A DNA stretch of 47,686 bases. Origin: Hallerella porci. GTDB lineage: Bacteria > Fibrobacterota > Fibrobacteria > Fibrobacterales > Fibrobacteraceae. Within the stretch, counting starts at the first letter, position 1. The number at the start of each line of letters is the position of its first letter. Both the position numbers and the translations under genes were made by a program. Under the pieces are notes generated by a model. That model was not told where the DNA came from. It was given only the letters and a program-made list of their open reading frames with translations, and did not search any database. Location: positions 1 through 47,686 of the forward strand of contig NZ_QGHD01000018.1 in assembly GCF_003148885.1 (NCBI RefSeq), written 5' to 3'. Shown here piece by piece: positions 6,493 through 8,730 of this stretch.

Positions 6493-7003
6493 CGCCGAGC
6501 CAAAGGCAAGGCGAATTCCCACAAAACAAGCCAAGCGAAGCGATGACGAAACAAAAAAGCGAAACCGCGCAAGATGACGAAATGAACAACCCGAAATCGC
6601 CGAGCCGAAAAGGCGAGGCGAATGCCCGCAAAACAAGCCAAGCGAAGCGCTGGCGTAAAGAAAAAGTTTCGTCAAACGAAGTGACGACGAAACTAAAAAA
6701 GCGAAACCGCGCAAGATGACGAAATGAACAACCCGAAATCGCCGAGCCGAAGGCAAGGCGAATGCCCACAAAACAAGCCAAGCGAAGCGCTGGCGTAAAG
6801 AAAAAATTTCGTCAAGCGAAGCGATGACGAAACAAAAAAGCGAAACCGCGCAAGATGACAAAATGAACAACCCGAAATCGCCGAGCCGAAGGCAAGGCGA
6901 ATTCCGCAAACAAGCCAAGCGAAGCGCTGGCGTAGAGAAAAAGTTTCGTCAAGCGAAGCGATGACGAAACAAAAAAAAGCGCCGAGCCGAAAAGGCGAGG
7001 CGC
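6493..7003. repeat. Degenerate tandem repeat array, period about 140 bp
   Basis: Five copies of CGCCGAGCC start at 6493, 6598, 6740, 6879 and 6980, each followed within a few bases by GGCGAGGCG or GGCAAGGCG. The two full units are 142 and 139 bp; the two flanking ones are about 105 and 101 bp because they lack an internal segment. Shared blocks include GCGAAACCGCGCAAGATGAC (6559, 6701, 6840), ACAAGCCAAGCGAAGCG and TTTCGTCAAGCGAAG. Unit lengths are not multiples of three and differ from each other, so overlapping open frames on the minus strand are by-products. No gene or RNA is recognisable. Together with the palindrome that follows, this fills the 670-bp gap between pyrC and the carboxyltransferase gene. 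Confidence 0.85.
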
Positions 7004-7026
7004 AAAATTCTGCGGTTAGCAGTTAC

Positions 7027-7136
7027 AGTAATTTGGCTTAGAGGCGAGCAAGACTAGGCGCGTGCCCCGCAGAACATACTCACGTATGTCAAGGGGCGCG
7101 CAACGACGTATTGCGAAGCCTATAAGACAAATTACT
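7027..7136. repeat. 110-bp imperfect palindrome, REP/MITE-like
   Basis: The outer arms are AGTAATTTGGCTTAGAGGC (7027-7045) and the near-complement ending at 7136, matching at 17 of 19 positions. Further in, GCCCC and GGGGC pair around a perfect inner hairpin ACATAC-TCAC-GTATGT. The result is a long two-level stem. Its right arm includes the stop codon of the carboxyltransferase gene at 7132-7134. The size and symmetry resemble a repetitive extragenic palindrome or a small non-autonomous mobile element. It could also serve as a strong RNA structure or transcription terminator for the minus-strand gene, although there is no T-run. Confidence 0.65.
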
Positions 7137-8730
7137 TGAGAGTGCTGACTTGGACGTCCCAACTCTGTCCGTTCAAAGCCACACGATACGTATTCGTACC
7201 TTGGACTTTCATGCCTGCCGTATTGACGGCAGCAGCAGCCGGTTTTGCAGCGGCAGCCGGAGCAGCGTTCGGGTCTTTTTTCGGAACGCCGATATGACGA
7301 TTTCCCTTGAGGAAGTCGATACCCTTGTTTCCGCCCTTCGTTTGGAGGCAGCCGGTGATGAAGATATTTTCATCGTTCACCGGAAGGTTATTTTCTTCCA
7401 AAAGTTTCTTCGCTTTCGGAATGCCCGGTTCGAGAATTTCTGCAGCGCACTTGACGCCCGGATAAGCTTCAGCAAACGGCTTCTTCTTCATCTGGTCTGC
7501 AGCGATCTTCACGAGTTCTGCATCCGGTTCGCACGGAGTCTTTCCGAGATAGCCGAGAATCATGTTGCCATAACCTTCGGTCATCTTATGCCACGTATCC
7601 AAGCCCTTCGACTTGTTCACGGTATTCACATAAGCTTGCTGGAAGTAGTACTGCGAAACCGGCGTCACCGACGAAGCAAAACCACCACGACGAACGCATT
7701 CGCTCATATTCGCAATCACCTGCGGATACAAGTGGAAAGTCTTCGTTTCGCGCATCATAAGAGTGTTTGCGGTCAAAGCACCCCCCGGCATCGGGGAGAA
7801 GATAACTTCCGAAGAAGTCTGGAGAGCTTCTGGCGGGAAGTTGTAATCCTTCAAGCATTCCACAGCCACATTGTTCGCTTCCATGAGCTTAGGAATTGCA
7901 TTGTCATCAACAATACCATCTTCGCCGAGAGCAAGCGCGTAATCTGTACCCTTGAGCGCATGATACATGCTGAAAAGATCCGGCTGAGAAGTTCCACCCG
8001 AAAGCGGTTTACGAGCGAGGTCAATACCATCAGCACCGCCTTCAATAGCTGCGACATATTGACGAAGACCCGTTCCACAAGTTTCGTGCGAGTGAATGCG
8101 AAGTTCCACTTTATCGCCGAGGAGTTTGCGGGCACGCTTAAAGGTTTCGTAAACTTTCATCGGGTTTGCGGTACCCGAAGCATCCTTAAAGCAAACAGAA
8201 GCAAACGGAACGCCTGCGTCCAAAATGCTCTTCAAAACTTTTTCATAGAAATCCGGATCGTGTGCGCCTTTGCAACCGAGCGGAAGTTCCATCATCGTCA
8301 CCACGACTTCGTGTTCCAAACCTGCATCGGTAATGCACTTACCCGAATAAATGAGGTTGTTCACATCGTTCAACGCGTCGAAGTTACGAATGCGGGTCAT
8401 GCCGTGCTTCTTAAACATCTTTGCGTGGAGATCGATCATATCATACGGCTGCGGAGCGAGAGCCACCACGTTAATGCCGCGGGCAAGAGTCTGCAAACGA
8501 GCCTTCGGGCCGACAGTCTTGCGGAAAGTATCCATCATATCAAATGCGTCTTCACCGCAGTTTTGGTAAAGAGCTTGGAAACGAGCACCGCCACCTGCTT
8601 CGAAGTGAGTAATGCCAGCTGCAGCTGCTGCTTCAACCGCCGGCATAAAGTCTTTCATAAAGACGCGGGCACCGAAGATGGACTGGAATCCATCACGGAA
8701 AGAGGTATCCTGAAAAAGAATTTTCTTCAT
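7132..8730 (-). CDS. Biotin-dependent carboxyltransferase (OadA/PycB-like), biotinyl domain incomplete
   Basis: This 532-residue protein is related to the oxaloacetate decarboxylase alpha and pyruvate carboxylase B subunits, which move CO2 between biotin and pyruvate/oxaloacetate. The TIM-barrel domain opens with DTSFRDGFQS (8-17; usually DTTLRDxxQS). It has the catalytic Lys at about 182 (CFKDASGT) and the metal-binding HxH at 213-215 (HSHETCG). The conserved carboxylase domain continues to about 485, followed by an Ala/Pro linker. The last 19 residues (TYRVALNGQSWDVQVSTLK) look like the first strands of a biotinyl domain, but the protein stops there, with no AMKM biotin site. A separate carrier protein would be needed. 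The stop codon lies inside a palindromic repeat. Confidence 0.8.
   Translation of the reverse strand: MKKILFQDTSFRDGFQSIFGARVFMKDFMPAVEAAAAAGITHFEAGGGARFQALYQNCGEDAFDMMDTFRKTVGPKARLQTLARGINVVALAPQPYDMIDLHAKMFKKHGMTRIRNFDALNDVNNLIYSGKCITDAGLEHEVVVTMMELPLGCKGAHDPDFYEKVLKSILDAGVPFASVCFKDASGTANPMKVYETFKRARKLLGDKVELRIHSHETCGTGLRQYVAAIEGGADGIDLARKPLSGGTSQPDLFSMYHALKGTDYALALGEDGIVDDNAIPKLMEANNVAVECLKDYNFPPEALQTSSEVIFSPMPGGALTANTLMMRETKTFHLYPQVIANMSECVRRGGFASSVTPVSQYYFQQAYVNTVNKSKGLDTWHKMTEGYGNMILGYLGKTPCEPDAELVKIAADQMKKKPFAEAYPGVKCAAEILEPGIPKAKKLLEENNLPVNDENIFITGCLQTKGGNKGIDFLKGNRHIGVPKKDPNAAPAAAAKPAAAAVNTAGMKVQGTNTYRVALNGQSWDVQVSTLK

Follow-up and report, generated by a model that had tools for sequence, protein, structure and literature searches.

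The window, the whole stretch of 47,686 nucleotides analysed here, covers positions 1–47,686 of contig NZ_QGHD01000018.1 from Hallerella porci (Fibrobacteraceae), and its reverse strand carries a carboxyltransferase (CT) gene that ends within a palindrome. The features at this locus are the following.

7132–8730, reverse strand: CT gene of the 5S/OadA/PycB type, 532 aa, without a biotinyl domain (profiles and structure model)
7198–7278, reverse strand: codons of a Pro/Ala-rich linker, about residues 485–511 (model; residues 491–510 below pLDDT 50)
7144–7197, reverse strand: codons of a putative terminal β-hairpin, residues 512–529, resembling the start of the free carrier described below (model, low confidence)
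7132–7134, reverse strand: stop codon of the CT gene, within the right arm of the palindrome (sequence)
7027–7136, no strand assigned: 110-bp imperfect palindrome (inverted-repeat scan and folding)
6971–7003, reverse strand: terminator-like stem-loop with a T run, beyond the palindrome (recognized by eye; absent from the scan output)

The encoded protein ends in TYRVALNGQSWDVQVSTLK followed directly by the stop codon and contains no biotin site, as the first-pass annotation had noted; Pfam searches (E value up to 1) matched PYC_OADA and HMGL-like and found no Biotin_lipoyl domain in it. The protein scores 173.5 bits against the profile of the transcarboxylase 5S subunit (NF008984; curated cut-off 827) and 187.6 bits against that of the oxaloacetate decarboxylase alpha subunit (TIGR01108; cut-off 756.5), thus falling under both cut-offs, and it lacks the biotinyl domain of the alpha type. 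A structure model built from a 40-row alignment has a mean pLDDT of 81.9; its top matches reach Z scores of 38–43 over 441–458 residues and comprise pyruvate carboxylase, OadA, and the 5S subunit of transcarboxylase. Against the 5S fold the Z score is 39.6 over 458 residues at about 25% sequence identity. K182, H213, and H215 are invariant in the 40-row alignment and align with the corresponding Lys and two His residues of 5S; we take them to be the catalytic Lys and His pair. The protein therefore has the makeup of a 5S-type subunit, that is, a CT fold with the Lys and His pair and no biotinyl domain. In the model its last 42 residues form the disordered linker and the low-confidence β-hairpin. 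The H. porci genome gave a single match to this CT, the window gene itself.

The palindrome has arms of 19 nt at 7027–7045 and 7118–7136 that match at 89% of positions. When the 121-nt stretch 7022–7142 was folded and compared with 200 dinucleotide shuffles, it reached z values of −6.2 as RNA and −6.75 as DNA, and none of the 200 shuffles was as good in either case. The palindrome is thus real, and its right arm contains the stop codon, as observed earlier; it had been proposed that insertion of a mobile palindrome, or a deletion at it, removed a biotinyl domain in this genome. A search of the H. porci genome for further copies (E value up to 10) matched only the palindrome itself, which is unlike a dispersed REP/MITE-like element with several copies per genome, and no Rfam family was found at this site. 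The palindrome is also absent from the 109 other CT loci examined, at least three of which run into a contig end ahead of the stop codon. Diverged relatives occur beside other genes in four other Fibrobacteraceae genomes (G016, G014, G020, and G027), the one in G016 being 74% identical over 100 bp (E value 4e-10). In three g2 loci (L019, L023, and L024) small palindromes of the form TAATTTG...CAAATTA overlap or adjoin the stop codon of the same CT gene, suggesting that the 3′ end of the gene is prone to acquiring such sequences. Farther downstream, between the CT gene and the next gene, presumably one for a dihydroorotase-like protein, lies a tandem array (6532–6976) of 3.2 copies of a 140-bp unit with 93% matches; it was not found in the eleven other loci compared.

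In the sister species Fibrobacter intestinalis ATCC 43854 the CT is 95% identical and has the same terminal residues, and behind it comes an ordinary flank without the palindrome. Among 80 orthologous CT loci, 56 encode the short form, 20 a form with a biotinyl domain, three are cut by contig ends, and one has a broken frame; none of the 56 short orthologs has the window palindrome. Removal of the domain by the palindrome, for which the position of the stop codon speaks, is refuted by these orthologs, and we give it practically no weight. The alternative raised in the same annotation, that this lineage normally has the short form, is instead supported both by these counts and by a tree of 52 CT rows. 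On this tree the short form requires two changes, in the simplest case a single loss that preceded the split of the Propionivibrio, Fibrimonas-like, and Fibrobacter rows and a regain in G038. The short CT is thus the normal, inherited half of a putative two-part enzyme, with a single ancestral loss of the biotinyl domain, and the palindrome is an unrelated later arrival, by insertion or expansion, just behind the gene. The short form is not universal in the family: G011 encodes a long CT that branches just outside the short rows, together with a normal AccC. Long-form relatives adjoin a gene for OadB.

Alignment with long orthologs places the cut. The window CT ends with a segment of the pattern Y-x-V-x-(L/V)-x-G-x-x-(Y/W/F)-x-V-x-V, and in long orthologs a linker comes after this segment and precedes a whole biotinyl domain. 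Hence the cut lies before the domain, of which nothing is left, and not inside it as first described. The free carrier of H. porci begins with a segment of the same kind, TLRISFEGKSYDVEVEVL (local score 46, compared with 30 for the best of 500 shuffles). This shared segment may be a docking hairpin common to CT and carrier, a suggestion made tentative by the low model confidence in this region.

A carrier encoded elsewhere in the genome, which the first-pass annotation had anticipated, does exist. H. porci has one free biotin carrier of 131 aa (C2:83048–83440), and the only other proteins of this genome that match PF00364 are a urea carboxylase and an efflux-type protein. Gene families in the surrounding operon were read on both the F. 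intestinalis copy and the H. porci copy, and the order is CoA-transferase, PCC-beta/MmdA-like CT, OadG-like protein, carrier, and OadB, so that the PCC-beta/MmdA-like gene lies two genes upstream of the carrier with the OadG-like gene between them. The genome thus holds both potential holoenzyme partners of the window CT, an acyl-CoA CT and a free carrier. In G015 the corresponding operon additionally contains a glyoxalase-family, epimerase-looking gene and two mutase subunits, and this genome has a separate accB-accC-accD-accA operon (names partly assigned by eye); by comparison, the Fibrobacter operon resembles one for propionate that has lost epimerase and mutase. No relatives of the carrier were found on viral contigs. 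Among 25 core genomes (g1–g5, g8, and g10) drawn from 60 relatives, the free carrier is clear in 22 and missing in G001, G018, and G023.

The H. porci genome lacks a stand-alone biotin carboxylase (AccC). We surveyed PF02785 (Biotin_carb_C) in 99 genomes of the phylum that are at least 90% complete, H. porci included, and sorted the matches by open frame. Nineteen genomes encode an AccC-sized protein (450–677 aa), three have only a protein of 507–527 aa, 11 have only one of about 1,200 aa, and 66 have none. For the 54 near-complete core genomes (g1–g5 and g8) the respective numbers are 0, 0, 11, and 43, which means that a stand-alone biotin carboxylase is absent from all 54 of these Fibrobacteraceae genomes; of the 14 control genomes, 13 matched the same model. 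In agreement, the AccC protein of G015, used as a query, gave no match better than an E value of 8e-13 in genomes without PF02785, and these weak matches look like other ATP-grasp enzymes. The protein of about 1,200 aa in H. porci (L171:1479–5069, G000:C32) is a urea carboxylase (1797 bits, cut-off 1304), an identity established on the H. porci protein among the 11 genomes that encode one of this length. Proteins of this size are present, as the sole biotin carboxylase, in all g1 genomes listed and in a few g2 genomes. Urea carboxylase was considered as a general source of carboxybiotin and rejected because PF02785 matches nothing in 43 of the 54 near-complete core genomes. Three f9 genomes (G061, G062, and G063) encode an AccC-sized protein, although AccC-less genomes belong to the same family.

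All 25 core genomes nevertheless encode fabD, and in H. porci it lies in a fatty-acid cluster of the order plsX-fabD-fabG-acpP. With fabD present and AccC absent, malonyl-CoA is needed and the usual enzyme for its synthesis is missing. Exactly one Carboxyl_trans protein is present in 24 of the 25 core genomes, the exception being G023 (74% complete), which has none. The window-type CT was likewise found in 24 of the 25, as fragments in G018 and G020; G017 has none. In G033 (L163:5541–7952) fabD is immediately followed by the only PCC-beta gene, and a gene for an acyl carrier protein is adjacent. This adjacency is not a rule, since it was seen in that one genome among the six g2 genomes inspected and not in G006, G021, G025, G029, or G031.

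The identity of this single acyl-CoA CT bears on its substrate. At the position corresponding to residue 422 of Streptomyces coelicolor PccB, PCC-beta has Ile in each of the 19 mutase-less genomes examined, of which 13 have the MmdA-type protein and six, from g2, another paralog; the one PCC-beta read from each of eight mutase-bearing genomes has Leu in all cases. A betaproteobacterial row outside the mutase test (L081) also has Leu. In the alignments the 12S subunit of Propionibacterium shermanii has Leu at this position, and 1vrg and 1x0u, which we take to be the Thermotoga maritima and Sulfolobus proteins, respectively, have Ile. The substitution D422I in Streptomyces PccB widens substrate use to acetyl-CoA, according to the sections of PMC7835884 consulted. 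Ile is therefore suggestive of an acetyl-type pocket in the core PCC-beta; because the Ile/Leu split within the MmdA-type branch amounts to one evolutionary change, it counts once and is suggestive only. The same residue weighs against the idea that these genomes retain a Propionibacterium-kind transcarboxylase acting on methylmalonyl-CoA and pyruvate. The P. shermanii enzyme (5S + 12S + 1.3S) likewise consists of a separate CT without a biotinyl domain, a separate carrier, and a separate acyl-CoA CT, its 5S subunit is among the best structural matches of the window CT, and mutase-bearing relatives share the same parts. Here, in contrast, the pocket residue has changed from Leu to Ile, OadB and OadG are encoded in the carrier operon, and methylmalonyl-CoA mutase was found in none of the 25 core genomes (PF01642 is absent from H. 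porci itself), and we regard such a residual enzyme as very unlikely.

Two further arrangements were found in AccC-less genomes of the phylum. In seven genomes from f7, f8, and f9 (G053–G059), all without PF02785, open frames of 650–696 aa join an OadA/PycB-type CT at its C-terminus to an AccB-like carrier, which has the AccB thumb and the motif EAMKL(F/Y)NEI; the AccB profile gave 122.8 and 109.3 on two of the seven (cut-off 115.2). The fusion adjoins accD and accA in six of the seven genomes, whereas G053 has these two genes on a separate contig. G037 and G038 lack accC, and both encode, in front of accD-accA, an AccB stub that has no biotinyl domain. The stub has a Cys/Asp-rich tail in place of the biotinyl domain (L156:2708–3352 in G038 and about 3261–3610 of L157 in G037). 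The CT of G038 has its own biotinyl domain and adjoins OadB, and that of G037 is represented only by a fragment at a contig end. Compared with the AccABCD enzyme, f7–f9 thus keep AccB and AccD-AccA and f2 keeps AccD-AccA with the AccB stub; what differs is that AccC is absent and that in f7–f9 AccB is fused to an oxaloacetate-type CT.

From the gene content, gene order, domain boundaries, short-form ancestry, and pocket residue described above we infer the reactions, their direction, and the physical contact between the parts. We consider it probable that the window CT is the oxaloacetate/pyruvate half of a split transcarboxylase that replaces ATP-dependent acetyl-CoA carboxylase. The window CT would strip a carboxyl group from oxaloacetate, release pyruvate, and load the biotin of the separate 131-aa carrier, which would then swing to the single PCC-beta/MmdA-like CT, where the carboxyl group would pass to acetyl-CoA to give malonyl-CoA for fatty-acid synthesis. 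The sum, oxaloacetate + acetyl-CoA → pyruvate + malonyl-CoA, is near equilibrium. The OadG- and OadB-like neighbors might vent surplus carboxybiotin as CO2 with Na+ export or, in reverse, help loading; OadB would set the level of carboxybiotin. The set probably derives from a propionate-type methylmalonyl-CoA decarboxylase/transcarboxylase after loss of epimerase and mutase. The strongest argument for this reading, in our view, is that in the absence of AccC an oxaloacetate-type CT accompanies an acyl-CoA CT in each of three arrangements. Speaking against it, the genes for CT and carrier lie on separate contigs, G017 encodes carrier and PCC-beta with no CT match, G011 within the same family combines a long CT with a normal AccC, and in g1 the free carrier might in principle receive its carboxyl group from urea carboxylase.

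A plain oxaloacetate decarboxylase that pumps Na+ would account for the OadB and OadG neighbors just as well. If CT, carrier, OadG, and OadB formed only such a pump, malonyl-CoA would have to come from some unrecognized enzyme. The CT fold and the OadB- and OadG-like genes beside the carrier agree with the known pump (OadA/OadB/OadG), as does the proximity of OadB to long-form relatives. However, the alpha subunit here has no biotinyl domain, and this explanation leaves unaccounted for the PCC-beta gene beside OadG and carrier, the acetyl-type residue, the missing AccC, AccA, and AccD, and the accDA-linked CT-AccB fusions elsewhere in the phylum; we think it improbable. Similarly unlikely in our view is a Na+-gradient-driven carboxylation of pyruvate, in which reversed OadB would load the carrier, the CT would make oxaloacetate for succinate, and the carrier would also feed malonyl-CoA synthesis. 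The half-reactions are reversible in principle. In addition, passages of Suen et al. 2011 (PMC3079729) name a pyruvate carboxylase, Fisuc_0845, which may be the ortholog of the window CT, as a source of oxaloacetate in F. succinogenes and place fatty-acid synthesis in supplement Text S3. This scheme is at odds with the f7–f9 accDA-CT-AccB stretches, where no OadB-like gene was recognized among the open reading frames listed.

Extending the transcarboxylase reading, we lean towards the view that most of the phylum lives without ATP-dependent biotin carboxylation and supplies fatty-acid synthesis through oxaloacetate:acetyl-CoA transcarboxylation, which would tie the making of membrane lipids directly to the oxaloacetate pool of succinate fermentation and to a Na+ pump. 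As part of this same view, the route would exist in three architectures: a split CT with a free carrier and a repurposed MmdA, a CT with biotinyl domain alongside AccD-AccA and an AccB stub, and a CT-AccB fusion in an accD-accA operon. A comparable principle has reportedly been described in Giardia intestinalis, where, as Jordan and colleagues are said to have proposed in 2003, an acetyl-CoA carboxylase without biotin carboxylase is joined to a pyruvate-carboxylase CT and was predicted to make malonyl-CoA by transcarboxylation. That enzyme is a fused eukaryotic protein, whereas the bacterial parts described here are encoded separately or as a CT-AccB fusion next to accD-accA. We found no account of oxaloacetate-driven malonyl-CoA synthesis in Fibrobacter in the open-licence PMC literature, and we make no claim that it is absent from print. 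The main text of PMC10308913 contains neither "acetyl-CoA carboxylase" nor "malonyl", and the sections of PMC8100219 searched contain neither "malonyl-CoA" nor "transcarboxylase".

The ATP-dependent acetyl-CoA carboxylase route to malonyl-CoA is treated as near-universal in bacteria. If our reading is correct, a major group of rumen cellulose degraders would couple lipid synthesis to its succinate pathway, it would be wrong to include a standard acetyl-CoA carboxylase in metabolic models of them, and biotin carboxylase inhibitors should not affect these bacteria. Thanks to the CT-AccB fusions, a single purified operon would allow a direct test of this idea. The sections of Lombard and Moreira (PMC3199775) consulted describe Thermotogales and Spirochaetes as lacking acetyl-CoA carboxylase and leave Fibrobacter unmentioned. 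Among our control genomes, that of Thermotoga maritima matched Carboxyl_trans and fabD and did not match PF02785, and from this gene pattern T. maritima may use the same route.
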